A program made the translations under genes and the position numbers. The notes beneath the pieces were generated by a model. It was not told the origin of the DNA. It searched no databases and saw only the letters and a list, made by a program, of their open reading frames with translations. This document shows, in pieces, positions 7,116 to 32,614 of a DNA stretch of 32,614 nt. The first letter of the stretch is position 1. Every line of letters begins with the position of its first letter. The stretch lies in assembly GCA_017848755.1 (NCBI GenBank), contig JAFIHI010000084.1, positions 1 through 32,614 on the forward strand, in the 5' to 3' direction. Origin of the DNA: Nakamurella sp. Lineage in GTDB: Bacteria > Actinomycetota > Actinomycetes > Mycobacteriales > Nakamurellaceae.

Positions 7116-7266
7116 CTCCCCGGTCCGTCGGGCCTTTCCCGGATGAGCCTATGCGCCGCGACCCCGCACATGCGAAAGCCGACGCGCGTGCCGGGTCGGT
7201 GCGCGAGCCACGCGAGTCGATCGGCGCGTCCCTGCCGGAATCGCACATCCAGGCCATGATGAAGGT
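7116..7266. promoter_or_regulatory. Divergent intergenic region, HAD phosphatase / AMP-ligase-like gene
   Basis: 151 bp that must hold both start signals. I see no convincing TTGACA/TATAAT pair and no palindrome of note. Confidence 0.3.
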
Positions 7267-9288
7267 GTGATGAGATTCGCCGACCCCGCCGACCCTGCCG
7301 ACGGTGCCCACAGTGCCAACTGCGCCGATCTGGTGCGTGCCGCGGCGCAGCGCACCCCGGCCGGCCCCGCGCTCATCGGCGCCTGGGGCACGCGCAGCTG
7401 GGCACAACTGGACGCGGCTATCGACGCTGGCGTCCCCGTGTTCCGTGCTGGCGTCCCGGCGCCCGGTGCCGACAGTCCGGACGCGCGCCCGGCGGATCGG
7501 GTGGTCCTCGCCCTGCCGACCGGCCCCGAGCTCGCGGCGGCGCTGTTCGCCGTGTTCCGCGCGGGCCTGGTGGCCGTCCCCGTCGACCCGAGGCGGACGG
7601 ATATCGCATGGGTCGTGCGTCGGGTGGGCGCCACCCATGTCGTCACCGACGCGGTCCCGGATGCATCGGCCCAGATCACGGCCCAGATCACCACGGGCGC
7701 GCAGGTCGCCGCGTGGTGGGGAAGCGACACGCCGGCTCGGGCGCGCACACGGGCTGCCTATGACGATGTTCGCGGCGGCGCACAGTCCGGCGGGGAGGAT
7801 CTGGCCCTGCTCGCGCGCGCTGCCCGGCAGGGTCCGCCCGTCATGCTCCCGCACCGTGCGCTGATCGCTGCGGCGCGGGCGATCTCCGGTGCCGAGCCGG
7901 TCGCCATGGGGCCTGCCGATCGGGTGCTGCAGGTGCTTCCGCTGTTCCACGTGGTCGGACTCGTCACCGCTTTCCTGCCGGCGGCGCTCGCCGGCGCGGC
8001 GGTGGTGGTACCGGACCCGAACGGCTCCACGACTCCGGCCGAGGCGGCGCTCGCCGCCGTGCGCACGCACCGCGTCTCGGTGTTACCGGCCGAGCCGACG
8101 CTCTACCGGCAACTGGACCGCATCGACGGCTTCGAGCGGGCGCTGGCGACCGTGCGGCTGATGACCTCGGGATCGTCGCCGCTCGACCCGGTGGACTTCG
8201 CGACCATCAGGACGGCCACCGGACAGGCGGTCCGCGAGGGCTACGGAATCTCTGAGGCCGCGTCCGCAGTGACTTCGACGCTGATGTCGCCGTCCGCGAA
8301 GGCGGGCTCCGTCGGCCGGGCCTATCCGGGCGTCGAGGTGCGCATCCTCGGCGACAGTCCTTCGGTAGCAACGGATTCCGCGCCGAGTGCCAGTGCGGCC
8401 GCCGCCACGATCGCCGAGACGAGCACCGAAGCCGGTACCGAGTCCGGTGACGATGCCGGTGCCGGAACGGCTGCCGCCGCGCCCACGGGCGGGGATGAGA
8501 CTGGGCTGGGCGCCGTCATACCCGCCGTCGAATCTGCAGTCCCGGCCACCGGCGAGACGCGAGAGGGACGCAGCGGCGCGGTCTTCGACGAGCTCACCGA
8601 CCTTGCCGAACTGTCCGCGCCCGGCGGGGATGTCGGGCCGATCGCGATCCGCGGCGACACCCTGTTCACCGGGTACTGGCCCGACGGCCGGTCCGGTCCC
8701 GATGCGGACGGCTGGTTCGTGACCGGCGACATCGGCTACTTCGACGACGCGGGCGAACTGCATCTGGTCGACCGCGCGGAGGAGGCCGTCACCGTCGCCG
8801 GATTCACCGTCTACCCGCGTGAGGTGGAAGACGCCTTGGTCCGGCATCCGCTGGTGGCCGACGCGGCCGTGGTCGGCATGCCCGGTCGTGGGGGCGAGAC
8901 TGTGGTGGCGGCGCTCGTCGCCAAGGCCGGAACGCGGCCGACCTCGAGCGACGTCGGCGAGTTCGTGGCCTCCTTGTTGCCGCCGTTCAAGAGGCCGACC
9001 GACTACCGGCTGGTCGACGTGCTCCCGCGGACCGAGGTCGGCCGGCTCGACCGCGCCACGGTGCGCCGGGACTTCGCGGCGAGCCGCGGCATCGACCTGC
9101 TGCCCCCGGTGCGGTTGCGTCCGGCCGACGACCCGGATCGTGCGGTGGGGCCAGGCGTCGGGCCGGTGGCCGACCGTGACCAGGGGCCGGAGCGTGCGGC
9201 GGGGCTGAATCGCTTGGGGCGGCGGCTCCCCGCTGCGGACAGCGGCCGAGGGCGCAGCGCCCGCGACACCGACGAGGACCTGTTCTAG
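7267..9288 (+). CDS. Degenerate acyl-CoA synthetase-like (ANL superfamily) protein
   Basis: 673-aa member of the adenylate-forming ANL superfamily. Recognisable blocks are LPLFHVVGLVTAF, YGISEA (A5), GWFVTGDIGYFDDAGELHLVDR-type A7, and VTVAGFTVYPREVEDAL (A8). Two catalytic elements are missing. The ATP phosphate loop (normally TSGTTGxPKG) is replaced by ARAARQGPP between LALL and VMLPHRAL. The A10 lysine (PRTxxGKxxR) is Arg in PRTEVGRLDR. A roughly 90-residue Ala/Thr/Ser-rich insert (about 366-455) splits the C-terminal half of the large domain, and a low-complexity tail of about 45 residues follows A10. It may be a non-catalytic scaffold or a decaying ligase. GTG at 7267 or ATG at 7270 could start it. 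It stands alone, upstream of a repeat tract and a DUF488 gene. Confidence 0.8.
   Translation: MMRFADPADPADGAHSANCADLVRAAAQRTPAGPALIGAWGTRSWAQLDAAIDAGVPVFRAGVPAPGADSPDARPADRVVLALPTGPELAAALFAVFRAGLVAVPVDPRRTDIAWVVRRVGATHVVTDAVPDASAQITAQITTGAQVAAWWGSDTPARARTRAAYDDVRGGAQSGGEDLALLARAARQGPPVMLPHRALIAAARAISGAEPVAMGPADRVLQVLPLFHVVGLVTAFLPAALAGAAVVVPDPNGSTTPAEAALAAVRTHRVSVLPAEPTLYRQLDRIDGFERALATVRLMTSGSSPLDPVDFATIRTATGQAVREGYGISEAASAVTSTLMSPSAKAGSVGRAYPGVEVRILGDSPSVATDSAPSASAAAATIAETSTEAGTESGDDAGAGTAAAAPTGGDETGLGAVIPAVESAVPATGETREGRSGAVFDELTDLAELSAPGGDVGPIAIRGDTLFTGYWPDGRSGPDADGWFVTGDIGYFDDAGELHLVDRAEEAVTVAGFTVYPREVEDALVRHPLVADAAVVGMPGRGGETVVAALVAKAGTRPTSSDVGEFVASLLPPFKRPTDYRLVDVLPRTEVGRLDRATVRRDFAASRGIDLLPPVRLRPADDPDRAVGPGVGPVADRDQGPERAAGLNRLGRRLPAADSGRGRSARDTDEDLF
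7759..7777 (+). repeat. Dispersed short repeat, partial copy
   Basis: TATGACGATGTTCGCGGCG inside the AMP-ligase-like gene. The last 17 bases are identical to 22452-22468. It sits just before the place where the P-loop is lost. Confidence 0.6.
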
Positions 9289-18347: not shown

Positions 18348-18415
18348 CGGTGACTCGGCGATGACGGTGACATGGCAATGGCGGTGACATGGTGATGACT
18401 GCGACACGGCAATGA
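18348..18415 (+). repeat. 17-bp tandem repeat spanning the ccdA-resB junction
   Basis: Four 17-bp units (18348-18364, 18365-18381, 18382-18398, 18399-18415) of the type CGGTGACATGGCAATGG. They begin at the base after the ccdA stop and end inside the resB start codon region. Each unit carries an ATG at the same place (18361, 18378, 18395, 18412); only the last opens resB. Confidence 0.9.
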
Positions 18416-20073
18416 CGGTGGCCGCGAAGCACGTCATACGGTACGTGGTCTGGCTCGGCAGGGCATTGTGGCGGCAGCTGACCTCGATGCGCACCGCGCT
18501 CATCCTGCTGTTCCTACTGGCGATCGCATCGTTGCCCAGCGCGCTGCTGCCGCAGTGGTACCTGAACCAGACGAAGACCGCCACCTACATCAAGGACCAC
18601 CCGTGGCTCGGCCCGATCCTGGACCGGCTCGGCTTCTTCGACGTGATCGCCTCCCCGTGGTATTCGGCGATCTACCTGCTGCTCGCGATCTCGCTCGTCG
18701 GCTGCGTCACGCCGCGCACTATCGAACTGGTCAAGCAGTGGCGGGCCAAGCCGGGCCGGGCACCGCGGAACCTCTCGCGGCTGCCGCACCATGCCGTGGT
18801 CACCGCCTCGGACGACCCGGCCGAGTGTGCCGAGCGCATCCGGATCGCCCTGCGGCACAAGGGGTTCGGCGGCTGGCGCGCGGTGGTGCGGACCGAGGAC
18901 AACGGCGCAGTAACGGTCTCGGCGGAACGCGGCTATCTGCGCGAGGTGGGCAATCTCGTCTTCCACTTAAGTGTGCTCGGCCTGCTGCTGACCATGGCGA
19001 TCGGCTCGCTGTTCGGGTACACCGGCTCGATTCTGGTGACCGAGGGCGACGGGTTCTGCTCGTCGGCGCCGGTGGCCTACGACAACTTCGCCCCCGGTCG
19101 GATGGTCGACGGCACGGACATGGCGCCGTTTTGCATCCAGGTGCAGAAATTCGAAGCCGCCTATGACGCGAACGGCATGGCAAAGTTCTACCGCGTGCAG
19201 CTCGGCGTGCAGTCCGGCGCGGCGGTCCACAGCGACCGCTACACCGAGCACATGCTCAACATCAACGACCCGCTGCGCATCGCCGGGCAGCGCCTCTACC
19301 TGCTCGGCCACGGCTACGTGCCGCAGTTCACGGTGCGTTTCCCGAACGGTGACGTGCGCACCTACTCGGCGCCGTTCGACCCGCAGGACGCCATGTTCAC
19401 GTCCGAGGGCGTGGTCAAGATCACCGATCCGCCGGGGTACAGCGGCGACGCCGCGCGGAAGAACCAGCTCGCCATCGTCGGCATCTTCGCGCCGAGTGGG
19501 CTCGTCACGGACGGCATCCTGACCTCCGCGTATCCCGAAATGCTGGCGCCGGCCGTCGCCATCCAGGTCTATCGCGGGGACCTCGGGCTCGATGCGGGTC
19601 AGCCGCAGTCCATCTTCGCGATCGACACCCGCCAGGTGGACAAGGGGCTTCTGGTCTCGCAGGGCCGGAAGAACCTGAACCTCGGTGAATCGATGACGCT
19701 TCCGGACGGCACGGTGATCACGTTCACCGGCGCGAAGAACTACGTGTCGCTGCAGACCTCGTACGACCCGGTGCAGGGCTTCGCGCTGCTGTTCGGCATC
19801 CTGCTGGTCGGCGGGATCCTGACGTCGCTCACCATCAAACGCCGCCGGGTGTGGTACCGGATCACGCCCGCCGCGGAGGGCGGGCCTAGGCTATCGACAG
19901 GCTCGCGGGTGGACATCGGCGGGTTGGCGCGCACGGACGAGGCCGGTTACGGCGCGGAGTTCGGCTCGTTGGTGGCGTTGGCCGGCGCGCCTGCGATGAC
20001 GCCGGAGTCGGCAGGCGAGCCGGCACCGTTGACCGAGGAAGTGCCTCGCAGTGAGAAGGAACGAGTGACGTGA
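18412..20073 (+). CDS. resB: Cytochrome c biogenesis protein ResB
   Basis: 553-aa membrane protein of the System II heme delivery and ligation complex (ResB with CcsA). It has three N-terminal helices (around MRTALILLFLLAIASLPSAL; WYSAIYLLLAISLVGCV; LVFHLSVLGLLLTMAIGSLF), a large extracytoplasmic domain with FCSSAP and GHGYVPQFTV, and a last helix (ALLFGILLVGGILTSLTI) followed by RRRVWYR, the typical ResB ending. A low-complexity tail of about 60 residues follows. The ATG 18412 is the last of four ATGs in a 17-bp repeat; the in-frame one at 18361 runs into TGA. The stop overlaps ccsA (GTGA). Confidence 0.93.
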   Translation: MTVAAKHVIRYVVWLGRALWRQLTSMRTALILLFLLAIASLPSALLPQWYLNQTKTATYIKDHPWLGPILDRLGFFDVIASPWYSAIYLLLAISLVGCVTPRTIELVKQWRAKPGRAPRNLSRLPHHAVVTASDDPAECAERIRIALRHKGFGGWRAVVRTEDNGAVTVSAERGYLREVGNLVFHLSVLGLLLTMAIGSLFGYTGSILVTEGDGFCSSAPVAYDNFAPGRMVDGTDMAPFCIQVQKFEAAYDANGMAKFYRVQLGVQSGAAVHSDRYTEHMLNINDPLRIAGQRLYLLGHGYVPQFTVRFPNGDVRTYSAPFDPQDAMFTSEGVVKITDPPGYSGDAARKNQLAIVGIFAPSGLVTDGILTSAYPEMLAPAVAIQVYRGDLGLDAGQPQSIFAIDTRQVDKGLLVSQGRKNLNLGESMTLPDGTVITFTGAKNYVSLQTSYDPVQGFALLFGILLVGGILTSLTIKRRRVWYRITPAAEGGPRLSTGSRVDIGGLARTDEAGYGAEFGSLVALAGAPAMTPESAGEPAPLTEEVPRSEKERVT

Positions 20074-21110
20074 TCGACCCGACGTTTTCGCACCTATCGG
20101 ATCTCGCCTTCGAGGGCGCCATGGCCGGGTATCTGGTCGCGCTCGTGTGCCACGCCTTGCAGATGGCAAGCCACCACGTGCGCAGGCAGTCGCCCGCGGC
20201 CGCTGCCACGCCGGCGCTCGTCGCCGCCGGCGGCGCGTCCATGACGGCGGATACCTTGTCCGACAGGAGTTCTGCGGCCGACGGCGCCCCCGCGGGTGAG
20301 GCCGAACCGCTGGGGCGTGGCACGGAACATCGTCATACTCGGTTCGCCGAGCAGATCGGACGGGCGGCCGTCATCGTGACGGTCATCGGCTTTGCGTGCC
20401 ATGTGCTCGCGCTGGTCCTGCGTGGATTCGCCGCGCACCGGCCGCCGTGGGGCAACATGTACGAGTTCACGCTGATGATCACCGGCGCGGCCGTCGCGAC
20501 CTGGCTGGTGGTGCTGTGGCGGAACAAGTTCGCGCGCCCGATGGGCATTTACGTGATGACGCCGATCACGGTGCTGGTTTTCCTGGCCGGGACCGTGCTC
20601 TACACCCGTTCCGCCCCGGTGGTCCCGATCCTCAACACGTACTGGCTGAACGTGCACGTCGTGGCCATCTCACTCTCCTCCGGGGTGCTGATGCTCTCCG
20701 GGCTGGCCTCGGCGGCCTACCTGGGGCGGCTGCGCTACGACGCGCGTGTCGCCGCTGGCGTCGTCGACCCGGAGCGTTCGGCGACCCGCCTTCCGGCCGC
20801 CGACAAGCTGGACCGGATCGCCTATCGGGCGGCGATTGCCGGGTTCCCGTTCTACACATTCGCGATCATCGCGGGCGCGCTGTGGGCGGAGGTCGCCTGG
20901 GGCTCGTATTGGAGCTGGGACCCGAAGGAAGTGGTCGCGCTGGCGAGTTGGGTGGTCTACGCCGGCTACCTGCACGCCCGTGCGACGGCCGGGTGGCGCG
21001 GCAAGCCCGCGGCCTGGATCTCGATCGTCGGGCTCGCGACGATCATCTTCAACCTGTTCTTCGTCAACATGGTGATCTCCGGCATGCACTCCTACGCCGG
21101 GCTCAACTGA
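20070..21110 (+). CDS. ccsB: Cytochrome c biogenesis protein CcsA/CcsB (heme handling)
   Basis: 346-aa membrane protein, the partner of ResB in System II cytochrome c synthesis. The tryptophan-rich WWD heme-binding segment WGSYWSWDPKEVVALASWVV is near residues 275-294, with conserved histidines in LNVHVVAI and YLHARAT and near the C-terminus (SGMHSYAG), and RPPWGNMYEF earlier. A low-complexity loop (about residues 40-85) sits after the first helix. The GTG at 20070 overlaps the resB stop by four bases. It is the last gene of the operon and is followed by a very strong inverted repeat. Symbol usage varies (CcsA/CcsB); actinobacterial annotations usually say CcsB. Confidence 0.93.
   Translation: MIDPTFSHLSDLAFEGAMAGYLVALVCHALQMASHHVRRQSPAAAATPALVAAGGASMTADTLSDRSSAADGAPAGEAEPLGRGTEHRHTRFAEQIGRAAVIVTVIGFACHVLALVLRGFAAHRPPWGNMYEFTLMITGAAVATWLVVLWRNKFARPMGIYVMTPITVLVFLAGTVLYTRSAPVVPILNTYWLNVHVVAISLSSGVLMLSGLASAAYLGRLRYDARVAAGVVDPERSATRLPAADKLDRIAYRAAIAGFPFYTFAIIAGALWAEVAWGSYWSWDPKEVVALASWVVYAGYLHARATAGWRGKPAAWISIVGLATIIFNLFFVNMVISGMHSYAGLN
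20318..20340 (-). repeat. Dispersed CGAGTATGACGA repeat
   Basis: The minus strand reads CGAGTATGACGA (20329-20340) followed by TGTTCCG, within the low-complexity loop coding part of the ccsB gene. Confidence 0.7.
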
Positions 21111-22926: not shown

Positions 22927-23820
22927 CTAAAGCAGGAGCCCGATCAGCAGCAGGACCGCGTAGCAGAACTCCGTCATGCCCGTCGCGCCCAATACCGGGA
23001 TCAGGGCTGGGCCGCGGGCACCGCGAAGCACCTGACGGACCGGCCGGATCGCCGGCAGCGCCGCCGCCAGCGCGATGAGGCACCAGGGATGCCGCAGCCC
23101 CACCACGACGACCGCGAGCAACGCGGCGACCAGCATGGCGGCGTACACCCGGCGGGTCAGTCCGTCGCCGAGGATGACGGCCAGGGTGCGCTTGCCGGTG
23201 GCGCCGTCGGTCGCCACATCGCGCAGATTGTTGGCCACCAGGATGGCGCAGGCGAGCAGGCCCGTACCCACCGCGAGTACGATCGAGGTGATCGAAACCC
23301 GTTCGGCTATCACATATGTCGTGCCCAGCACGGCGACCAGGCCGAAGAACACGAAGACGAAGAGTTCCCCGAACCCGGCGTATCCGTACGGCCGCCTCCC
23401 GCCGGTGTAAAACCATGCGGCGGCGATCGACGCCGCGCCGACGAGGATCAGCCACCAGGCACTGGTGATCGCGAGCGCGAGCCCGGCGGCGGCCGCGATC
23501 GCGAAGCAGGTGATGGCGCCGGCCTTGACCGCTTGCGGCGCCGCCGCGCCGGAACCCACCAGCCGGAACGGGCCGACGCGGTGCGCGCCGTCCGTGCCGC
23601 GGATGCCGTCGGAGTAGTCGTTCGCGTAGTTCACGCCGACCTGCAGAGCCAGCGCGACGATGAGGGCGAGCGCGGCCTTGACCCACGACTCGGCGGTCCA
23701 CGACGAATGGTGAACGCCGAGGATTGCAGCGCCGGCGCCGCAACCGACCAGTACCGGCGCGATCGCCGCGGGCAGGGTGCGCGGGCGGGCGGCGGAGACC
23801 CACTGCGCTGCGGTTGCCAC
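22927..23820 (-). CDS. menA: 1,4-dihydroxy-2-naphthoate polyprenyltransferase MenA
   Basis: 297-aa integral membrane UbiA-family prenyltransferase that attaches the isoprenoid chain to 1,4-dihydroxy-2-naphthoate in menaquinone synthesis. The first aspartate-rich motif is NYANDYSDG (64-72), followed by IRGTD; the second is NNLRDVATD with GKRTLAV. About eight to nine hydrophobic helices run through the protein, ending MTEFCYAVLLLIGLLL. The GTG start is at 23820. It is last in the menB-menE-menA series on the minus strand, 11 nt after menE. Confidence 0.93.
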   Translation of the reverse strand: MATAAQWVSAARPRTLPAAIAPVLVGCGAGAAILGVHHSSWTAESWVKAALALIVALALQVGVNYANDYSDGIRGTDGAHRVGPFRLVGSGAAAPQAVKAGAITCFAIAAAAGLALAITSAWWLILVGAASIAAAWFYTGGRRPYGYAGFGELFVFVFFGLVAVLGTTYVIAERVSITSIVLAVGTGLLACAILVANNLRDVATDGATGKRTLAVILGDGLTRRVYAAMLVAALLAVVVVGLRHPWCLIALAAALPAIRPVRQVLRGARGPALIPVLGATGMTEFCYAVLLLIGLLL

Positions 23821-23831
23821 GGGAGACGAGC

Positions 23832-25169
23832 CTATCGGGGAACGAGGGCGCGCACCGCGGCCCGGTCGGGTTTGCCGGACGGCAGGTGGGGGATGGCGTC
23901 GACCGTCACGAGCCGCCGTGGGCGATGGTGCGCGGGCAGATCGGTGAGCGCGGCGCGCAATGACGCGACATCCCAGGTATGCCAGTCGGTCTCGTGTGTG
24001 CGGCCGGCCGCGACAGTCGCGTCGACTGCACCCGGTGCGCCCAACGCTGCGCGCCTATCCGGGACGATGACGGCGGTCACCACCTGGCCCCAAGTCTTGT
24101 CCGGCACACCCACGACGACCGCATCCTCGATACCGGTCAACCGCTTGATCGCCGCCTCGACGGGCCCCGGCGCGACGTTGATCCCCCCGGTGACGATGAC
24201 GTCGTCGATCCGCCCGAGGACGGCGAGCGTTCCGTCGGCGGAGATCTCGCCCATGTCGGCGGTGACGTAGCTCCCGGGCCGGGCGAATGCCGGATCCCCG
24301 GGCCGGTTGCGGTAACCGCGGGCGACCATCGGGCCGGTCAGCACGATCGCCCCGGTGCCGTCGACCGCCGTCGGGCTGTTGAGCGTCTTGTCGTTGAGTG
24401 TCTTGTCGTTGAATGTCGTGCGGTTGAATGTCGTGCGGTTGAATGTCACCGTGACGCCATCCAGCGGAACGCCGTCATAGACGCAGCCGCCGCAGGTCTC
24501 CGTCATGCCGTAGGTGGTGACGACGGGAATCCCTGCGGCCCTGGCGGTTTCGAGCAGTGCGGGCGGCGTTGCGGCCCCGCCGACCAGCACGGCGTCGAAG
24601 ATCTCGGCGGTGGCCACGGCCGCCTCGGCGTCCGCGAGGATCCGCCGTAGTTGCGTCGGCACCAGCGAAACGTACCGTCGCGGACCGGGCAGCCGTTGCG
24701 CGTGCGCGACGAAATCCATTGCCGTGAAGGGCTTCCCGCGGTCCATCACCGTCGGTTCGGTGCCGGCCCGCGCCGCGCGCAGCAGCACCTGTAGGCCGGC
24801 GATGTGCTCGGCGGGCAGGGCGAGCAGCCACGTGCCGGGCCCGCCCATCCTCGCCTCCGTGGCGGCGGCCGATGCCGCGAGTTGACCGGCCGATAACAGC
24901 ACCCCCTTCGGGGTTCCCGTGGAGCCGGAGGTCGGCATGACGAGTGCGGTCGGGTCGGCGGGGTCGTCCTCACCGGGGTGGAGGGCGGCGTTTTGTGCCG
25001 GGCCCGCGCCGAGCGCAGCGATGATGTCGCCCGCACGCGGATCGCGCTGACCGATCGGCAACAGCGCGGGTCCTTCGCCGGTCAGAGCGCGCCGCAGGTC
25101 CGAGAGCAACCCGAGGACGTCCGCACCGGCGGGAACCATGATCGGCTCTACGCGGCGCATATGCATCAT
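23832..25169 (-). CDS. menE: o-Succinylbenzoate-CoA ligase MenE with inserted pentapeptide repeat
   Basis: 445-aa ANL-superfamily enzyme that activates o-succinylbenzoate with CoA. The P-loop PTSGSTGTPKG is at 79-89, A5 YGMTETCGGCVYDG at 220-233, then GRIDDVIVTGGINVAP (A8) and LPSGKPDRAAV with the A10 lysine, so it looks catalytically intact. Residues 242-266 are a 5-residue repeat (TFNRT/TFNDK/TLNDK), encoded by a 15-bp tandem repeat, between two beta strands after A5. The first ATG is 25169; the ATG one codon later has better spacing from GGAG. It lies 75 nt downstream of menB and 11 nt upstream of menA. Confidence 0.93.
   Translation of the reverse strand: MMHMRRVEPIMVPAGADVLGLLSDLRRALTGEGPALLPIGQRDPRAGDIIAALGAGPAQNAALHPGEDDPADPTALVMPTSGSTGTPKGVLLSAGQLAASAAATEARMGGPGTWLLALPAEHIAGLQVLLRAARAGTEPTVMDRGKPFTAMDFVAHAQRLPGPRRYVSLVPTQLRRILADAEAAVATAEIFDAVLVGGAATPPALLETARAAGIPVVTTYGMTETCGGCVYDGVPLDGVTVTFNRTTFNRTTFNDKTLNDKTLNSPTAVDGTGAIVLTGPMVARGYRNRPGDPAFARPGSYVTADMGEISADGTLAVLGRIDDVIVTGGINVAPGPVEAAIKRLTGIEDAVVVGVPDKTWGQVVTAVIVPDRRAALGAPGAVDATVAAGRTHETDWHTWDVASLRAALTDLPAHHRPRRLVTVDAIPHLPSGKPDRAAVRALVPR
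24379..24453 (-). repeat. 15-bp in-frame tandem repeat inside menE
   Basis: Five 15-bp units starting at 24379, 24394, 24409, 24424 and 24439, of the type TTGAATGTCGTGCGG on the plus strand; the third and fourth are identical. They encode the TFNRT-type pentapeptides of MenE. Confidence 0.92.
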
Positions 25170-25175
25170 TTCTCC

Positions 25176-25244
25176 GGATGATCATCTTCTGTGGGGGATC
25201 CGTTGCGGTTTCCGGAACAAATCCCACTCAACAGGTGATCATCC
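25176..25244 (-). promoter_or_regulatory. 9-bp inverted repeat framing the menB-menE gap
   Basis: GGATGATCA (25176-25184) and TGATCATCC (25236-25244) are inverted copies at the two ends of the intergenic region, one touching the menB stop and the other next to the menE ribosome binding site. It could set up an mRNA structure controlling menE translation or be an operator pair. Weak evidence. Confidence 0.35.
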
Positions 25245-26198
25245 CTAAAAGGCCCACGGGAAACGGGTGAAGTCGGGGGAGCGCTTCTGCAGGAACGCGT
25301 CTCGCCCCTCGACGGCCTCGTCCGTGCCGTACGCCAGCCGCGTCGCCTCTCCAGCGAACAACTGCTGCCCTACCAGCCCGTCGTCCACCAGGTTGAACGC
25401 GTACTTCAACATCCGTTGCGCGGTGGGCGATTTCGCGTTGATCGCCGCGGCCCAGTCCAGTGCCACATTCTCCAACTCCGCATGTGGCACGACGTCATTC
25501 ACTGCGCCCATCGCGTGCATCTGTGCCGCCGTGTACTCGCGCCCGAGGAAGAAGATCTCCCGAGCGAACTTCTGGCCGACCATACGGGCGAGGTAGGCGC
25601 TACCGTAGCCCGCGTCGAAGGAGCCGACATCCGCGTCAGTCTGCTTGAACATCGCGTGCTCGCGCGAGGCTAGCGTCAGATCGCACACCACGTGCAGGGA
25701 ATGCCCGCCGCCGGCCGCCCACCCGGGCACCACGGCGATCACGATCTTCGGCATGAAGCGGATCAGCCGCTGCACTTCGAGTATGTGCAGCCGTCCCCCG
25801 CGTGCCGGGTCCACGGTCTCGCCGGTGTCGCCTGAGGCGTACCGGTAGCCGTCCCGGCCGCGGATCCGCTGATCCCCGCCGGAGCAGAACGCCCAGCCGC
25901 CGTCTCGCGGCGACGGTCCGTTCCCGGTGAGCAGCACGCAGCCCACCGACGAGGTCTGCCGCGCGTGGTCGAGCGCCGTGTAGAGCTCATCGACCGTCTG
26001 CGGGCGGAATGCGTTGCGCACCTCGGGCCGGTTGAAGGCGATGCGCATGGTGGGCAGATCGCGCACTGTTCCGCCCGCGCCACCGGACCGGTCGACGGCG
26101 CGGTGATAGGTGATATCGGAGAAGTCGAACCCCTCGACGGGCCGCCATCGCTCCGGGTCGAAGATCGCGCTCACCGGCTTCGCCGCGGACGTCGTCAT
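25245..26198 (-). CDS. menB: 1,4-Dihydroxy-2-naphthoyl-CoA synthase MenB
   Basis: 317-aa crotonase-fold enzyme that cyclises o-succinylbenzoyl-CoA to dihydroxynaphthoyl-CoA. Family marks: MRIAFNRPEVRNAFRPQTVDEL, WAFCSGGDQRIRGRDGY (oxyanion and CoA region), VIAVVPGWAAGGGHSLHVVC, MFKQTDADVGSFDAGYGSAY, and FLQKRSPDFTRFPWAF at the C-terminus. The ATG at 26198 gives MTTSAAKPVS, the start expected for actinobacterial MenB; the frame stays open upstream but nothing conserved is there. No strong Shine-Dalgarno sequence is seen; TATAGG lies about 15 nt upstream, so a very short leader is possible. The start codon is embedded in a copy of the dispersed repeat. Confidence 0.95.
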   Translation of the reverse strand: MTTSAAKPVSAIFDPERWRPVEGFDFSDITYHRAVDRSGGAGGTVRDLPTMRIAFNRPEVRNAFRPQTVDELYTALDHARQTSSVGCVLLTGNGPSPRDGGWAFCSGGDQRIRGRDGYRYASGDTGETVDPARGGRLHILEVQRLIRFMPKIVIAVVPGWAAGGGHSLHVVCDLTLASREHAMFKQTDADVGSFDAGYGSAYLARMVGQKFAREIFFLGREYTAAQMHAMGAVNDVVPHAELENVALDWAAAINAKSPTAQRMLKYAFNLVDDGLVGQQLFAGEATRLAYGTDEAVEGRDAFLQKRSPDFTRFPWAF

Positions 26199-26203
26199 AC
26201 TCG
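26181..26203 (-). repeat. Dispersed CGAGTATGACGA repeat over the menB start codon
   Basis: The minus strand reads CGAGTATGACGA (26192-26203) then CGTCCGCGGCG. The ATG inside is the menB start. It matches the copy at 1127-1149 in 20 of 23 positions. Confidence 0.7.
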
Positions 26204-26448
26204 TCAGCCTATATTTCGCGACCTGGCATGCGACCCCTGCAGTCGGCAGCTGCGGCGGCGACCTGCGGGGTGGCGCCGCAGCCGATCCCACGTGGCGCCC
26301 GGGGGAGCTGACACCACGGTGACGAGTGGGGTACTGTACTCATATCACGTAAGACGTCCTACCGACCATGTCCGCTGTTGTGGCCGGCGTGGTCCGGGTG
26401 GTCGCGCAGGCGCCGCTGCCGGCCAGCAGCAGACAGGGGAGTGCAGTC
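26199..26448. promoter_or_regulatory. Divergent region between menB and the catabolic gene cluster
   Basis: 250 bp holding the start signals for menB (minus) and the plus-strand cluster. GTACTGTAC (26331-26339) is a short palindrome beside CATATCAC, a possible regulator site. AGGGGAG (26435-26441) is the ribosome binding site of the following gene. Confidence 0.4.
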
Positions 26449-27237
26449 GTGCTCAAGTCCGTTTCCATTCAGCTCATGTGGGCCGACCTGCCGTTTCCGG
26501 AACGGGTCGCCAAGGCCGCGGCGGCGGGCTTCGATCTGGTCGATCTGTGGGATCAACGCAACAGCGACATCCACGCGGTCCACGATGCGTGCCGGGCGCA
26601 CGGCATCGGTATCAACGGCTTCTTCGCCACTCGCGATACGTCGCTGTGCGATCCGGGGAGCCGGACCGCGGTGCTGGACGAGATCAAGGCGAATCTGGAA
26701 GTGGCCGTCGCCGTCGGGGCCAGACAGATGCACTGCTTCTCGAACGCGATCCGGCCCGGTGGAATCGTGGCCGTCGCGCCGCCGCTGGCCCCGGAGGCGC
26801 TGATGGAATCGTGTGCCGAGGCGCTCAGTGCCGCAGCGGATCTCGTGGCCGGCACCGGGGTGCAACTGGTTCTCGAACATCTCAACACCGTGTTCCTGCC
26901 CGGGTACCTGTGGGATGACGTGAATGTGACGGCCGGCCTGGCTCGGCTGATCAACCGTCCGGAGATCGGCGTTGTGTTCGACACCTACCATCAGCAGCTC
27001 ACCTACGGTCGGCTCACCGACAGCCTGGTCGCCTGCCTGCCGCAGCTCGCCCGCGTCGATCTTGCGGAGGTGCCGGGCCGATTCGAACCGGGGCAGGGTG
27101 AGATCGATATGGCCTACCTGCTCCGGATTCTCGCCGAGCATGGCTGGGACAAGACCGTCACATTCGAAACCACCCCGTCCGACGGCAACCCGGAAACCGC
27201 ACTGGCCGCGATCAACAAGTTGATGCCGCTGCGGTGA
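26449..27237 (+). CDS. Hydroxypyruvate isomerase-like TIM-barrel protein
   Basis: 262-aa member of the xylose isomerase-like TIM barrel/AP endonuclease 2 family, closest in length and pattern to hydroxypyruvate isomerase (Hyi) and related sugar isomerases. Visible metal-site segments: VQLVLEHLNT (Glu), GVVFDTYHQQLTYG (Asp/His), LARVDLAEVPGRFEPGQGEIDM and a last glutamate in TVTFETTPSDG. The start is GTG 26449, 7 nt after AGGGGAG; an earlier ATG at 26368 lacks such a signal and would add non-conserved residues. It heads a plus-strand run with two SDR genes. The reaction is probably aldose-ketose isomerisation or epimerisation of a small carbonyl compound; the substrate is unknown. Confidence 0.8.
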   Translation: MLKSVSIQLMWADLPFPERVAKAAAAGFDLVDLWDQRNSDIHAVHDACRAHGIGINGFFATRDTSLCDPGSRTAVLDEIKANLEVAVAVGARQMHCFSNAIRPGGIVAVAPPLAPEALMESCAEALSAAADLVAGTGVQLVLEHLNTVFLPGYLWDDVNVTAGLARLINRPEIGVVFDTYHQQLTYGRLTDSLVACLPQLARVDLAEVPGRFEPGQGEIDMAYLLRILAEHGWDKTVTFETTPSDGNPETALAAINKLMPLR

Positions 27238-27296
27238 TGCCGCAGCACCGGACACTCGCCCGTCATCCATGCGCACCCATCAAGGAGTTCCTGCTG

Positions 27297-28046
27297 ATGA
27301 GCACAGACCTTTTCGACCTGTCCGGGAAAATCGCCCTCATCAGCGGGGCCGGATCACGGGGTGGCCAAGGCGCTGCTCAGGCGCGGCTGTTCGCCGAGCA
27401 CGGTGCACGGGTCGTGATCGGCGACCTGCCGTCCTCACAGGGGCGTGAGGTGGCCGCCGAGATCGGCGATGCGGCGATGTTCGTGGAGCTGGACGTCACT
27501 GACGAGGCGTCCTGGGCCGCCGCCGTGGCGGCGACGAAGGCCCGCTGGGGGGCGCCGAGCATCCTGTCCAACACGGCGGGCGTGTGGCTGATGAAGGGCA
27601 TCCTGGAGACCAGTGCCGCCGAGTACCAAAAGGTGATCGCGGTGAACCAGATCGGCGTCTACCTGGGCATGGCCGCCGTACTGCCGGACATGAAGGCTGC
27701 GGGATCGGGTGCGATCGTCAATATTTCATCGGTGTCCGGGATCAAGGGCGGCGGGCAGCCGTTCGCGTATGCCGCGAGCAAGTGGGCTGTTCTGGGTATG
27801 ACGCATCAGGCGGCACACGACCTGGCGAAATTCGGGATCCGGATCAACGCCATCTGCCCCGGCGTGGTGGACACCCCGATGATCGAGGGCGGCAAACCCG
27901 TGCTCGAACACCTCGAATCGATGATCCCGACCGGGCGAGCCGGACAGCCATCGGAGATCGCGTCGATCGCCCTGTTCCTGGTGAGCGAGGCGAGCAGCTA
28001 CGTCTCGGGCACCCAGATCGTCGCGGACGCGTCGTTGACCGCATAG
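27297..28046 (+). CDS. Short-chain dehydrogenase/reductase (SDR) 1
   Basis: 249-aa classical SDR. The cofactor motif is SGAGSRGGQG (16-25), with Asp in VIGDLP suggesting NAD(H). LSNTAG replaces the common NNAG. The catalytic Ser is in NISSVSG (144-145), with Tyr158 and Lys162 in YAASK, and PGVVDTPM follows. The C-terminal LFLVSEASSYVSGTQIVADAS is typical. ATG 27297 has AAGGAG 9 nt upstream. It lies 59 nt after the Hyi-like gene and 79 nt before a second SDR, so the three are probably co-transcribed. It likely oxidises a hydroxyl of the cluster's substrate. Confidence 0.88.
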   Translation: MSTDLFDLSGKIALISGAGSRGGQGAAQARLFAEHGARVVIGDLPSSQGREVAAEIGDAAMFVELDVTDEASWAAAVAATKARWGAPSILSNTAGVWLMKGILETSAAEYQKVIAVNQIGVYLGMAAVLPDMKAAGSGAIVNISSVSGIKGGGQPFAYAASKWAVLGMTHQAAHDLAKFGIRINAICPGVVDTPMIEGGKPVLEHLESMIPTGRAGQPSEIASIALFLVSEASSYVSGTQIVADASLTA

Positions 28047-28125: not shown

Positions 28126-28890
28126 ATGTGGGCAGAACTTCAGGGCGCAGTGGGCATCATCACCGGCGGCGCCGGCGCTATCGGGTCCGAGACCGCCGCT
28201 GTCTTCGCCGAGCATGGCGTCACCGTTGCGATCGCCGACATCGTCGATCCGTCACCTGTGGTGGCACGGATCAACGCGGCAGACGGCCGGGCGCTGGGCG
28301 TGCAGGCGGACATGAACGATCCGGATGCGGTCGATCGGATGGTGGCCGACGTGCTGGAGTTCTCCGGTGGGCGGATCGATTTCCTGATCAACTTCGCCGG
28401 GCTGTTCAACGATGTGCCCCGGGTTCCGTTCTGGGAGATCGACCTGGCGATGTGGGATTCGGTCGTCGAGTCCAATGTGCGCACCGCGTTCCTCGCGACC
28501 CGCGCGGTCAGCGCGCCGATGCGTGCGGCCGGCCACGGCCGGATCGTGCACGTCAGCTCGAATACCGCCGCGTTCGGTATGGGCAACTTCCTGCACTACA
28601 CCTCCGCCAAGGCTGCCCTGGTCGGTATGGCTCGTTCGATGGCCCGGGAGCTCGGCCCGTTCGGCATCGCGGTGAACGCGGTAGGGCCCGGCCTGGTGCA
28701 CACCCCCGCGGTCGTCGCAGCGCAGGAGCAGAAGTACCTCGACCAGGTCGTGAACGGCCAGTGCCTGCACCAGCCGATCGTGCAGCGCGACATTGTCGAC
28801 GCCGTCGCGTTTCTCGTCTCCCCGGCCGCGCGAATGGTGACCGGACAGACGCTGCTCGTCAACGGCGGCGCCACGATGGGTTCCTTCTGA
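28126..28890 (+). CDS. Short-chain dehydrogenase/reductase (SDR) 2
   Basis: 254-aa classical SDR with an intact cofactor motif TGGAGAIG (13-20), Asp38 in AIADIVD favouring NAD(H), INFAGLF in place of NNAG, Ser144-145 in HVSSNTA, Tyr158/Lys162 in YTSAK, and PGLVHTPAVV. The C-terminus VTGQTLLVNGGATMGSF is the standard SDR ending. ATG 28126 is preceded by GAGGGGAG about 10 nt upstream. Only about a third identical by eye to SDR 1, so they probably act on different steps. It converges on the hydrolase gene with 21 nt between stops and no strong hairpin there. Confidence 0.88.
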   Translation: MWAELQGAVGIITGGAGAIGSETAAVFAEHGVTVAIADIVDPSPVVARINAADGRALGVQADMNDPDAVDRMVADVLEFSGGRIDFLINFAGLFNDVPRVPFWEIDLAMWDSVVESNVRTAFLATRAVSAPMRAAGHGRIVHVSSNTAAFGMGNFLHYTSAKAALVGMARSMARELGPFGIAVNAVGPGLVHTPAVVAAQEQKYLDQVVNGQCLHQPIVQRDIVDAVAFLVSPAARMVTGQTLLVNGGATMGSF

Positions 28891-28911: not shown

Positions 28912-30279
28912 TCAGTCCCAATAGCGCTCCGCGTCAGGAACGGTGACGCAACGTCCGCGGCCGTAGACGACCTCGGCGTCAGGCTGTGCGGCGTCATACA
29001 CCACATCACCACGCGACAAGGTGAGCACCGGCCAGCCCTTGAGCTTCCAACCCTCGTACAAGCAAGTGCCCTTGCCGGACGGGTGCTCGACCACCCGCTC
29101 CTCGTCCAGGTCGATCATGACCAGGTCCGCGTCGCCGCCCACGGACAGCGAGCCCTTCTTGGGGTGCAGGCCGAAACGCTTGGCCGGGTTGTAGGAGTTG
29201 AGTTCCGACAGCCGTTGCAGGGACATGCCGCGCTCGTGCACGCCGAAGTGCAGCATCAGCGGCAGCTCCCACGGAAAGCTCACGACTCCCGGCTTCTCGG
29301 ACCAGATGTCCCCGCCGTTCTTCTTGAACGGCACGTGATCCGTGCCCAGCGTGGAGATCTGGCCGTTGAGCATGCCCTTCCACAGGCCGTCAAGCTGGGT
29401 GCGGTCGCGGAGCGGCGGCGAGATCTTCGCCGTGGTGCCGAGATCCGCGTCGTACGCGGTGCGGGTGAGGTAGTGCGGGCACGTCTCGATCCATACGTCG
29501 ATGCCGCGCACCCGGGCCGCCGCGGCCATCGTCGGCCCCGCCGCCACCGTCGTGTGCACCACGTAGAGCGGGCAGCCGGTGATCTCGGCGAGATGGATCA
29601 TCCGCTCGATTGCCTCCTCCTCGACGAACGGCGGGCGCGATTCGCTGTACGCGGCCAGATCGCAGCGGCCGGTCGCCTTCATCTCCGGCTTGAGAAGTTC
29701 GACCAGCTCCGTGTTCTCACAGTGAACCGCGACGACACCGCGCGGCAGCTTCGCTGCTTCGCGCATCGCGGCGAACACCCACGAGTCGGGGGAGGAGTGG
29801 ATGCCGATGGAGTTTCCGACCTCGTAGCCCATGTGGCACTTGAACGTCTGCACGCCGGTCTGCTCGGCGATCTCGGCGATCTCGGAGACGTGTTCGGCCT
29901 TCTGGATTCCGAAGTGGAAGCCGAAGTCGACGACGGCGCCCTGCTCGCCGCGTTCGCGCCGATCCCAGTAGTACGGCACGTACTTCTGCTCCATGCTGCG
30001 GGCGAACAACAGGATCGTGGTGACCCCGCCGCGCGCCGCCCCGGCCGTCTCGGTACGTATGTCCTCGTCGAAGTCGTAGTTGACGCCTAGGTGGCAGTGC
30101 GGGTCGATGACGCCGGGCATGACGACCCGTCCGCCCGCGTCGATGGTGCGCTCTGCGGGGGGCATGGCGTCGTTCCCGCCGATGGCCGCGATGCGTCCGC
30201 CGCTCACGGCGATCGCGCCGCGCTGCTCGCCGCTGTGATCCACCAACCGCGCGTTCGTGATGACCAGGTCAGCCTTCAT
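28912..30279 (-). CDS. Dihydropyrimidinase/allantoinase-like cyclic amidohydrolase
   Basis: 455-aa amidohydrolase of the dihydropyrimidinase-hydantoinase-allantoinase group, which opens cyclic amide or imide rings. The binuclear metal site is complete: His61 and His63 (DPHCHLG), the carboxylated lysine Lys147 (FKCHMGYE), His186 (VHCEN), His242 (VVHTT) and Asp314 (TLGTDHVPF). ETCPHYL and SYNPAKRFGLHPKKGSL are further family blocks. The ATG at 30279 lies inside the end of the DpaA-like gene with GGAGAAGGA just upstream, so the two are translationally coupled. Ring size and substrate cannot be decided; the partners (opine-type dehydrogenase, DpaA-like protein) argue against ordinary pyrimidine breakdown. 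Confidence 0.88.
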   Translation of the reverse strand: MKADLVITNARLVDHSGEQRGAIAVSGGRIAAIGGNDAMPPAERTIDAGGRVVMPGVIDPHCHLGVNYDFDEDIRTETAGAARGGVTTILLFARSMEQKYVPYYWDRRERGEQGAVVDFGFHFGIQKAEHVSEIAEIAEQTGVQTFKCHMGYEVGNSIGIHSSPDSWVFAAMREAAKLPRGVVAVHCENTELVELLKPEMKATGRCDLAAYSESRPPFVEEEAIERMIHLAEITGCPLYVVHTTVAAGPTMAAAARVRGIDVWIETCPHYLTRTAYDADLGTTAKISPPLRDRTQLDGLWKGMLNGQISTLGTDHVPFKKNGGDIWSEKPGVVSFPWELPLMLHFGVHERGMSLQRLSELNSYNPAKRFGLHPKKGSLSVGGDADLVMIDLDEERVVEHPSGKGTCLYEGWKLKGWPVLTLSRGDVVYDAAQPDAEVVYGRGRCVTVPDAERYWD

Positions 30280-31168
30280 TCCTTCTCCTCGATTCGATCT
30301 CGGCGATGCGTCGTGCGATGCCCTGCCACTGACTAGCGCCCACCGTGATCGGCGCCCGGCGACCCAGCCCGCGCGCCCACAGGGCTCGGTGGCCGAGACG
30401 CTCGGCGGCGGCCAGGTCGATGCCGCCCGGTGGCGCGGCCAGGTCCATCACCAGCGATTTCGGTGGCAGCAACGCCAGGATCGATTCGTCGACGATCCGG
30501 TGCGGCACTGTGGACAGCACCATACAAGTGGTAGGGGCAACCTGCGCCAGATCCTCCAGCGGGTGCGGTATGCAGCCTGCGCACAGCGCATCGGCGCGCT
30601 GCACCGGGTTGCGGGCGGCGACATGCACCCGGGCGCCGAGCAATACCAGGGTGCGGGCGAGCAGCCGACCGATGGATCCGTGCCCGACGACCACCACCTC
30701 CGAGTTGTGGATCGTCACGCGGGTGTTCGCGATGATCGCGCCGATCGCGCCCTCGACGATGGCCGGGCCGCGCAGCAGCATTAGCTCGACGTCGTGCTCG
30801 TATTCGCTGATCTCGATGCCGAGCTGCATGGCAGCGGTGGACAGCGCCTCGTTGGGCCAGCCGAGAATCACCGTGGCCGGCTTGTTCATGGCGCGGAGCA
30901 GCTCCGCGTCGGGATAGATGGGCACGGGTGACTCGGGCGCGAAGAGTGCGCCATCAGCGGCCTGCCCCGGGATGGGGAACAGCGCGTAGTCGGCGCCGGA
31001 GATCGCCTCGAGGGCACTTCCGGCGTGCGTCACGCCGTCGATGCCGTCGGCAGGCCACGGGAAGCCGAAGCCACGCACGGCGGCGCCCGTCCCCGCCGCG
31101 AGGCGGGCGATCTCCTGCTCGCGCTCGTCCCCGCCGACCACGGCGATGGTGCGTCCGGCCAGGTCCAT
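30269..31168 (-). CDS. Dipicolinate synthase subunit A-like dehydrogenase (DpaA/SpoVFA-like)
   Basis: 299-aa NAD(P)-binding protein that matches the layout of Bacillus DpaA (SpoVFA). It has an N-terminal domain starting LAGRTIAVVGGDEREQEIARL and ending LFPIPGQAADG, a middle segment with PAIVEGAIGAIIANT and TIHNSEV, then a Rossmann core VVVVGHGSIGRLLARTLVLL (GHGSIG 162-167), MVLSTVPHRIVDE, VMDLAAPPGGIDL and a C-terminal ARGLGRRAPITVGASQ. In endospore formers DpaA works with flavoprotein DpaB; no DpaB is present here. ATG 31168 has AAGGAGG 4 nt upstream. It sits between an opine dehydrogenase-like gene and a cyclic amidohydrolase, so its substrate is probably an imino or cyclic amino acid. The family call is fairly firm; the reaction is unknown. 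Confidence 0.82.
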   Translation of the reverse strand: MDLAGRTIAVVGGDEREQEIARLAAGTGAAVRGFGFPWPADGIDGVTHAGSALEAISGADYALFPIPGQAADGALFAPESPVPIYPDAELLRAMNKPATVILGWPNEALSTAAMQLGIEISEYEHDVELMLLRGPAIVEGAIGAIIANTRVTIHNSEVVVVGHGSIGRLLARTLVLLGARVHVAARNPVQRADALCAGCIPHPLEDLAQVAPTTCMVLSTVPHRIVDESILALLPPKSLVMDLAAPPGGIDLAAAERLGHRALWARGLGRRAPITVGASQWQGIARRIAEIESRRRNEG

Positions 31169-31243: not shown

Positions 31244-32317
31244 TCAATCGCGGACCATGCTGATCAGCTCGTCACGGGTCAGCCCGCTAATGCCGAGCCG
31301 CTCGGCCGTCAGACCCCGTGTCAGCAGCCCGGTGTCGGTCAGCGTGGCACCGATCTGCAACAGCGCGTCGGCGGTGGGCACCGGGACGCCCGCGATTCCG
31401 GCCAGCTCCACGAACGGCAGCACGCCGAAGCCGAAATCCTCCTGGTAGTAGCGATGCTGCAACGAGTCCGGCGCCTTGATCGTCGAGTTGGCCACGCCGC
31501 CGCGAATCGCCGCGCCCGTGTCGCCCCTCTTCGCGGCATCGATATCGACGCTTCCGAGCGCCGCCATCTCCTCCATCAGCGTGGGCAGCTGATGGCCGAA
31601 CGCGGCCGCCACGGCCAGTCTCTCGGCGTCATAGGCGTCGATGACGCGCACCACGGACGGCGTCATAGCGTCGACGTAGAACCTGAAGTCGCCGCCTGTC
31701 GCCTCCATCCAGGCCACGGACAGCACCGCGCCCGGCGGGTGGAGCACCAGGTTCACATTCGCCAGGCTTGAGGCGAGCACGTCGGGCGCCGCGACGACCC
31801 CGGGGAACAGCTCGGCCGCCCGGCGCAGCGCCGGTTGCCCGCCGGGCAGGGCGCCCGCCGTTACCCGCGCGGCCCGCCCCCCGATCGAGACGACACCGCC
31901 TTGCACCCGGCCGATGTAGGTGAGCGTGGAGAATTCCACCACGGGCGGCAGCGGCACGCCGGCCGCGGTGAATACGTGCCGCAGATGCAGGGCGCCGCCG
32001 GTGTGACCAGGATTGAGGATGATCGGGACCGTCGGTGCCAGTGCCGCCAGGTCGGCGAAGAGCTGAGGATGCACCACCGAGGGCAGGCACACGACGATCG
32101 CGTCGACGCCGGAGATCGCCTCGGCGAGGTCCGACGTCATCCCCGCGGGGCGGACCGATCCCTCACCGAACACGCCGGTGTAGTGGATGCCCGATTCGCG
32201 ATGCGCGTCCAGCCGCGCCGGGTTGCGGTTCCATAGGCGGACGTCCACTCCCGCCCGCGTCAGCTCGACCGCTGCCGCGAGCCCGCCGGCGCCGGCGCCG
32301 AGCACAGCGGTCGTCAT
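31244..32317 (-). CDS. Octopine/nopaline dehydrogenase-family NAD(P) enzyme
   Basis: 357-aa two-domain dehydrogenase. The N-terminal Rossmann domain starts TTAVLGAGAGGLAAAVELTR (GAGAGG 7-12) and continues with VDAIVVCLPSVVHP and ILNPGHTGGAL. The C-terminal Octopine_DH domain carries the catalytic histidine His193 in NVNLVLHPPGAVLS. Family members join or split an amino acid and an alpha-keto acid through a secondary amine. The ATG at 32317 overlaps the stop of the upstream enolase-superfamily gene (ATGA), so the frame's longer upstream reading is a shadow of that gene. It lies 75 nt before the DpaA-like gene. Direction (opine breakdown or formation) and substrate are unknown. Confidence 0.86.
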   Translation of the reverse strand: MTTAVLGAGAGGLAAAVELTRAGVDVRLWNRNPARLDAHRESGIHYTGVFGEGSVRPAGMTSDLAEAISGVDAIVVCLPSVVHPQLFADLAALAPTVPIILNPGHTGGALHLRHVFTAAGVPLPPVVEFSTLTYIGRVQGGVVSIGGRAARVTAGALPGGQPALRRAAELFPGVVAAPDVLASSLANVNLVLHPPGAVLSVAWMEATGGDFRFYVDAMTPSVVRVIDAYDAERLAVAAAFGHQLPTLMEEMAALGSVDIDAAKRGDTGAAIRGGVANSTIKAPDSLQHRYYQEDFGFGVLPFVELAGIAGVPVPTADALLQIGATLTDTGLLTRGLTAERLGISGLTRDELISMVRD

Positions 32318-32614
32318 GCGCGGTAGCGCTCCAATTTGGCGCGGTCGACCTCGATGCCCAGGCCCGGGCCCTCCGGGACGAAGACGCGGCCGCCCTCGAA
32401 CCTGAACGGCTCGGTGATGAGGTCGTCGAGGTAATAGACGCCGGCGATCTTGGGCCCGTCCGAGCCCTCCGGCTGCGAGACCGGGCACACGCTCGGCAGC
32501 GATGTGCTGGCCACCGCGGCCCCCAACTGCAGGTTCGCCGCGTTGCCGATGCCGGTCTCGATCGAGCCGCCGATGTCGTTGTACATGCCGAGGGCGCCGA
32601 CCAGATCACCGACC
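32314..32614 (-). CDS. Enolase-superfamily enzyme (mandelate racemase/muconate lactonizing type), C-terminal part
   Basis: Only the last 99 codons are in the window; the 5' end lies beyond 32614. The visible part has the C-terminal pattern of the muconate cycloisomerase-like branch: GGSIETGIGNAANLQLGAAV (ending the barrel, with the conserved Glu-Thr-Gly-Ile), then YYLDDLITEPFRFEGGRVFV and PEGPGLGIEVDRAKLERYR. Enzymes of this branch do racemisation, epimerisation, dehydration or cycloisomerisation of carboxylates. The stop overlaps the opine dehydrogenase-like start by ATGA, making it the upstream gene of that operon. MenC is also an enolase-superfamily enzyme and often lies near menB, but this ending fits the MR/MLE branch better. 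Confidence 0.8.
   Translation of the reverse strand, partial: VGDLVGALGMYNDIGGSIETGIGNAANLQLGAAVASTSLPSVCPVSQPEGSDGPKIAGVYYLDDLITEPFRFEGGRVFVPEGPGLGIEVDRAKLERYRA

Follow-up and report, generated by a model that had tools for sequence, protein, structure and literature searches.

A DpaA-like subfamily in a mobile, putatively catabolic gene cluster of actinobacteria and rhizobial plasmids

Main

The DpaA-like protein described here represents a new subfamily of a known fold, and its gene belongs to an undescribed, mobile and putatively catabolic cluster. The gene lies near one end of the window, as we call the whole 32,614-nucleotide stretch of DNA analysed. We assign a probability of about 0.5 to the reading that this subfamily forms part of a horizontally spread catabolic cluster, in which it serves as an NADP(H) oxidoreductase that likely acts just before ring opening. 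A first-pass annotation of the same DNA had drawn attention to the protein itself; the conserved multi-gene cluster around it, common to actinobacteria and alphaproteobacterial plasmids, is the more informative finding and had been missed. Relatives of the protein are annotated as 'DpsA' or 'dipicolinate synthase subunit DpsA' in public records, names that imply spore chemistry in bacteria without it. The conserved cluster, plasmid-borne and with cultured Aminobacter, Shinella, Phyllobacterium and Arthrobacter hosts, offers a handle both on a new degradation pathway and on a second chemistry of the DpaA fold.

A DpaA-like gene among enzymes of a wider cluster

On the minus strand, the end of an MR/MLE enolase-superfamily gene is followed by genes for an opine dehydrogenase-like protein, the DpaA-like protein and a hydantoinase-like amidohydrolase, and three genes of a wider cluster lie on the plus strand. 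The features are as follows, L032 being the closely related locus of Actinobacteria bacterium 69-20.

26368-27237, plus strand: hydroxypyruvate-isomerase-like TIM barrel of the wider cluster (PF01261, 9.3e-29), with a 289-aa homologue in L032 and in relatives
27234-28046, plus strand: SDR oxidoreductase of the wider cluster (PF13561, 7.2e-58), present in relatives
28126-28890, plus strand: second SDR oxidoreductase of the wider cluster (PF13561, 1.8e-50), in L032 and several relatives
28912-30279, minus strand: hydantoinase/allantoinase-like cyclic amidohydrolase, amidohyd2 (PF01979, 1.9e-17; L-hydantoinase 1gkr, 1.1e-68)
30269-31168, minus strand: DpaA-like NAD(P)-dependent oxidoreductase, 299 aa (PF16924, 6.3e-20; 2rir, 1.3e-30; AlphaFold model with pLDDT 84.7 and Z 27.9 to 3d4o)
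31244-32317, minus strand: opine dehydrogenase-like (Octopine_DH) protein (PF02317, 8e-36; 1bg6, 1.7e-43)
32314-32614, minus strand: C-terminal end of an MR/MLE enolase-superfamily enzyme (48% identical to the MR/MLE protein of the Aminobacter cluster)

The start of the opine dehydrogenase-like frame was set by L032, which is 95% identical; the L032 form of the first SDR is 249 aa long and starts inside the window frame. The amidohydrolase start codon overlaps the stop of the DpaA-like gene. At the other end, the MR/MLE gene is truncated by the contig end at 32614 and continues on contig C183 of the same genome (G000). The DNA of L032, 94% identical, places the missing upstream genes on C183: the MR/MLE end in the window matches L032 6554-6854, and L032 1-6529 matches C183. 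The genes there encode an isochorismatase, a tautomerase, an aldehyde dehydrogenase, a TRZ/ATZ-type amidohydrolase, an E2 protein and a VOC protein. As the first-pass annotation had pointed out, DpaB is not adjacent. The neighbours are the hydantoinase-like amidohydrolase, the Octopine_DH protein and the MR/MLE end.

Two further stretches are recorded as side observations. On C183 (L063), positions 6724-8028, inside the extended cluster of this genome, hold a split TPP-enzyme pair resembling sulfopyruvate decarboxylase alpha/beta. Window positions 22927-26291 hold an AMP-binding enzyme, an enoyl-CoA hydratase-type protein (Pfam domains for both) and a prenyltransferase-like frame, which resemble the menaquinone genes menE, menB and menA.

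The fold of DpaA

The segments in which a whole DpaA domain layout had first been recognized (VVGGDEREQEI, PAIVEG, TIHNSEV, GHGSIG and LAAPPGG) are all present in the minus-strand frame, and the layout is real, because Pfam, NCBIfam, solved-chain and model matches all point to DpaA. DpaA_N (PF16924) matches at 71.9 bits (E 6.3e-20 in Pfam; cut-off 29.2), which places the protein in the fold family. Whole-chain alignments are also obtained with NF006162 (189.7 bits, E 7e-56) and TIGR02853 (168.1 bits), both short of the respective equivalog cut-offs of 261 and 319.65; the DpaA models are by far the top matches, and no other dehydrogenase family is preferred. The closest solved chains are those of DpaA (2rir, 1.3e-30; 3d4o, 1.1e-25), at about 29% identity. 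An AlphaFold model built from five sequences (mean pLDDT 84.7, pTM 0.65) matches solved DpaA over the whole chain in structural comparison, with Z 27.9 to 3d4o and 26.1 to 2rir; loops 126-130 and 269-271 of the model, in which many of the family-specific residues sit, have pLDDT below 50. After DpaA, the nearest structures are transhydrogenase domain I, AdoHcy hydrolase and alanine dehydrogenase, at Z of about 20. D-2-hydroxyacid dehydrogenase is absent among the best 50 VIA-align matches to the model, which excludes nothing. Chance similarity was considered and rejected, weak matches elsewhere being mostly to other NAD-binding domains (residues ~127-290).

The gene is under purifying selection, with dN/dS of 0.19 between the window and L032 copies (95% identical proteins) and of 0.06 between two rhizobial copies from Aminobacter; on these values, it is maintained.

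A clade apart from dipicolinate synthase

Judged from its sequence, the protein is a DpaA-fold member of a separate subfamily and not a dipicolinate synthase. In a tree of 19 proteins (14 cluster proteins, four Firmicutes DpaA and the L053 protein of genome G177), where some branches are long and just four DpaA were available, the cluster proteins and the Firmicutes DpaA form separate clades on opposite sides of branches with 100/99 support; L053 falls on the side of the cluster proteins, at the end of a long branch. At 26 positions, including G13, D14, R16, E139, G162, G164, G167, R186, D242, P273 and T275, all 14 cluster proteins and all four DpaA have the same residue. Another 34 positions are invariant in the 14 cluster proteins, with residues absent from all four DpaA compared, among them E122, E124, D126, R133, R271, Q280 and W281. 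The missed equivalog cut-offs are a weak argument taken alone, because the DpaA of Pusillibacter (L044), encoded beside dpaB, likewise falls below both.

Gene content points the same way. A dpaB gene follows the DpaA gene in four of four Firmicutes loci, and tblastn with two DpaB queries found all four, the best E value among 18 other sequences being 0.42. Anywhere in G000, neither DpaB (TIGR02852 profile; B. subtilis control positive) nor Spo0A (Spo0A_C; control positive only in B. subtilis) was found, an absence that is strong but not absolute, because the assembly is 96.5% complete and in 259 contigs. A search of G000 with the DpaA-like protein returned the protein itself and one weak partial match, and no second dpaA beside a dpaB, which the first-pass annotation had named as evidence against its reading, came to light. 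Its description of a DpaA relative without DpaB, in a lineage that does not form endospores, is thus borne out genome-wide.

It could still be argued that the protein is a genuine dipicolinate synthase subunit A, with the DpaB role taken by another flavoprotein, a part that EtfA plays in some clostridia, and that the host makes dipicolinate. The fold and the 26 shared invariant residues would agree with this, and an EtfA-type replacement of DpaB is reported in Clostridium perfringens (PMC9024752). We nonetheless give the idea hardly any weight, since every locus seen has a catabolic neighbourhood, G000 has neither Spo0A nor DpaB, and the cluster proteins form their own clade with other residues at 34 invariant positions. 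Dipicolinate synthesis by this protein was rejected on the combined grounds of no DpaB, no Spo0A and a different clade.

The separate clade, the invariant residues of its own and the non-sporulation context support one half of the earlier proposal, namely that a DpaA relative was recruited to what is most likely another reaction; the other half, an imino-acid substrate, is suggested by the fold and the neighbouring opine dehydrogenase.

A conserved cluster in actinobacterial genomes and on plasmids

The order MR/MLE, opine dehydrogenase, DpaA-like, amidohyd2 is found in nine of nine actinobacterial genomes (G000, L032, L033, L034, L035, G111, G200, G017 and G869; G794 and L035, whose contigs are both 3,282,754 bases long, were counted as one record). 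Upstream, all nine have genes for a 4-OT tautomerase and an isochorismatase-VOC fusion (on C183 in G000). Among plasmids, 18 of 72,556 records match the DpaA-like protein. Four of these are Firmicutes DpaA, and the other 14, from Aminobacter (10), Shinella (3) and Phyllobacterium (1), match at 56-58%. By coordinates, the opine dehydrogenase gene lies directly upstream of the DpaA-like gene in all 14, which also carry the isochorismatase fusion; MR/MLE is present in 13, plasmid pAA03 being without it and pAA01 of the same strain with it. Annotated neighbourhoods were viewed for 6 of the 14. A lone recruited gene was rejected as a description, the context of the DpaA-like gene being conserved.

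Across the phylum, DpaA_N occurs in 5 of 396 genomes, four times in the cluster and once (G177) in another context; weak matches occur in 78 of the 396, and five of those 78 hold a strong one (E 3e-44 or better). Among 394 genomes of the class, an 11-row profile (A1) matched just the one that holds the window; in the class of G111, it matched 3 of 199 genomes. The rare and patchy occurrence of the DpaA-like cluster fits an accessory trait.

Strict pairing with the opine dehydrogenase gene, seen in 14 of 14 plasmids and 9 of 9 actinobacterial loci, might suggest that the DpaA-like protein serves that enzyme as a partner subunit, regulatory or without catalysis of its own. This is very unlikely, given the strong selection on the protein and its many invariant residues, the nucleotide-binding glycines among them, and given that the DpaA-like gene of G177 has no recognized opine dehydrogenase nearby.

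On pAA03 (L041, NZ_CP015008.1), the cluster lies between identical 2489-base direct copies (54-2542 and 18361-20849) that carry TniQ/TniB/Mu-type transposase genes, an arrangement suggestive of a composite catabolic transposon; pAA01 of the same strain carries the cluster a second time. The G177 locus (L053, 2334-10206) shows the DpaA fold in a second setting unrelated to spores, in which a more distant DpaA-like protein (35%) has an ABC transporter, DUF3830 proteins, an amidohydrolase and a luciferase-like monooxygenase as neighbours. On plasmids of Cytobacillus, Paracoccus and Agrobacterium, remote Octopine_DH relatives are accompanied, by annotation, by no other core cluster gene. A literature search of listings and abstracts returned no paper on the cluster, and none of five terms looked for occurs in the text of the Aminobacter genus paper PMC8235418.

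Partner enzymes

The opine dehydrogenase-like neighbour is closest to the opine dehydrogenase of Arthrobacter sp. 1C (1bg6, 1.7e-43), and its Octopine_DH domain together with an aligned His-Asp pair places it among the opine dehydrogenases. The His and Asp that align with 1bg6, presumably those of the opine dehydrogenase dyad, are kept in 14 of 14 cluster opine dehydrogenases. A His-Asp dyad is conserved among opine dehydrogenases according to PMC10787698.

The amidohydrolase has L-hydantoinase 1gkr as its closest solved relative (1.1e-68). Its top NCBIfam match, NF004839, reaches 282.5 bits, far under the cut-off of 631, so the protein falls short of a hydantoinase/allantoinase equivalog and only a superfamily-level name is justified. 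The neighbour enzymes tested lie below NCBIfam equivalog cut-offs, the exceptions being CodA in Aminobacter (585 bits versus 403) and the 4-OT model NF002571 (62.3 versus 55); the E1 beta subunit exceeds a subfamily-model cut-off (347.8 versus 321).

The isochorismatase domain, fused to a VOC domain, is nearest to a cysteine hydrolase, RutB and biuret hydrolases, and the TRZ/ATZ-type protein resembles heterocycle deaminases. Clusters of relatives also hold heterocycle deaminase-type amidohydrolases, an M24 hydrolase, an ABC transporter and a 2-oxoacid dehydrogenase, in whose place rhizobia have malate synthase; actinobacterial loci add pyruvate-dehydrogenase-like E1/E2 proteins, SDRs and the hydroxypyruvate-isomerase-like barrel, and several of them an NMT1-type ABC transporter. 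Of six rhizobial loci viewed, four also have genes for D-amino acid dehydrogenase, malate synthase G and GlcG. The Shinella HZN7 stretch has none of these, and in the Phyllobacterium stretch, where similar but interrupted sequence occurs, they are unannotated.

The isochorismatase-VOC/glyoxalase fusion (L036 13114-14103, with homologues in nine actinobacterial genomes) was noted in its own right: within the plasmid collection, all 14 records with a full-length copy also carry this cluster. At L036 12231-12914, a 227-aa protein annotated as 'resolvase' or hypothetical is conserved in rhizobial clusters; the Aminobacter protein has no Pfam or NCBIfam match.

A possible route

These enzyme classes lead us to infer that the cluster serves to break down a cyclic compound rich in nitrogen. 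Such a compound would be taken up by the cluster transporter and deaminated, its ring would be opened by the hydantoinase-type amidohydrolase, and a carbamoyl-type group would be removed by the isochorismatase domain. The opine dehydrogenase might then split the secondary-amine acid so formed, yielding an amino acid together with a 2-oxo acid that passes into central metabolism. The entry may differ between hosts, because deaminases, the M24 hydrolase and the transporter vary between loci.

Within this route, an intermediate with a cyclic imine or a double bond in its ring would be oxidized or reduced by the DpaA-like protein, with NADP(H) as cofactor. NADP(H) is suggested by a conserved Arg in AARN, where the second Rossmann strand ends; this cofactor reading is drawn from one residue that is present in DpaA too. 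We place the step just before ring opening, where it would make the substrate of the hydantoinase, because the two genes overlap and are translationally coupled, and by likeness to reductive pyrimidine breakdown, in which ring reduction precedes dihydropyrimidinase. Gene adjacency as such does not fix the order of reactions. Creatinine-like cyclic guanidines, methylglyoxal hydroimidazolones, the thiamine pyrimidine, orotate-like pyrimidines and purine breakdown products were considered as substrates, none being favoured.

An alternative order, possible but rather doubtful, has the DpaA-like enzyme act after the opine dehydrogenase. It would then oxidize or reduce a cyclic or linear imino acid derived from the secondary amine, much as alanine dehydrogenase or N-carboxyalkyl amino acid dehydrogenases do, and the two enzymes would form one step pair. 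Their genes stand side by side in every case and overlap in rhizobial loci, and L-alanine dehydrogenase 2vhx is among the next structural neighbours after DpaA (Z 19.1). The fold does not discriminate here, however, because scores are equal for AdoHcy hydrolases and transhydrogenase domain I, and the DpaA-like gene is coupled no less tightly to the gene for the hydantoinase. With the DpaA-like step kept ahead of ring opening, we tentatively suggest an undescribed pathway for a cyclic guanidine or ureide, or a related N-heterocycle, which has spread between Actinomycetota and rhizobial megaplasmids and in which the DpaA-type enzyme readies the ring and the opine dehydrogenase works in the direction of breakdown. 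If so, a DpaA-type enzyme would have been turned from making an aromatic pyridine ring to preparing a ring for opening by a hydantoinase.

Comparison with known systems

With DpaA/SpoVFA (2RIR, 3D4O), the cluster protein shares the two-domain fold and the GGDxR, VEG, GxGxxG, D-x-x-x-PG and APxT motifs. It differs in being only about 29% identical, lacking DpaB and belonging to a separate clade with a catabolic gene context, and in residues E122, E124, D126, R133, R271, Q280 and W281, for which all four DpaA have others. The opine dehydrogenase of Arthrobacter sp. 1C (1BG6) aligns with the 31244-32317 protein over nearly its whole length, but is the counterpart of this partner gene and not of the DpaA-like protein.

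Creatinine breakdown (PMC4417704) runs via N-methylhydantoin and N-carbamoylsarcosine to sarcosine. The proposed chain of deamination, ring opening, N-carbamoyl hydrolysis and amine cleavage resembles it by analogy. The cluster has the same deaminase, hydantoinase and isochorismatase-type N-carbamoyl hydrolase classes; by contrast, no sarcosine enzyme was identified in it, and its opine dehydrogenase, DpaA-like protein, MR/MLE enzyme and tautomerase are extra.

In reductive pyrimidine catabolism, dihydropyrimidine dehydrogenase, a flavin/iron-sulfur enzyme, is followed by dihydropyrimidinase. The cluster appears to resemble this system in coupling an oxidoreductase gene to that of a putative hydantoinase/dihydropyrimidinase-type enzyme, and to differ from it in that the predicted oxidoreductase is DpaA-like rather than a flavin/iron-sulfur enzyme.
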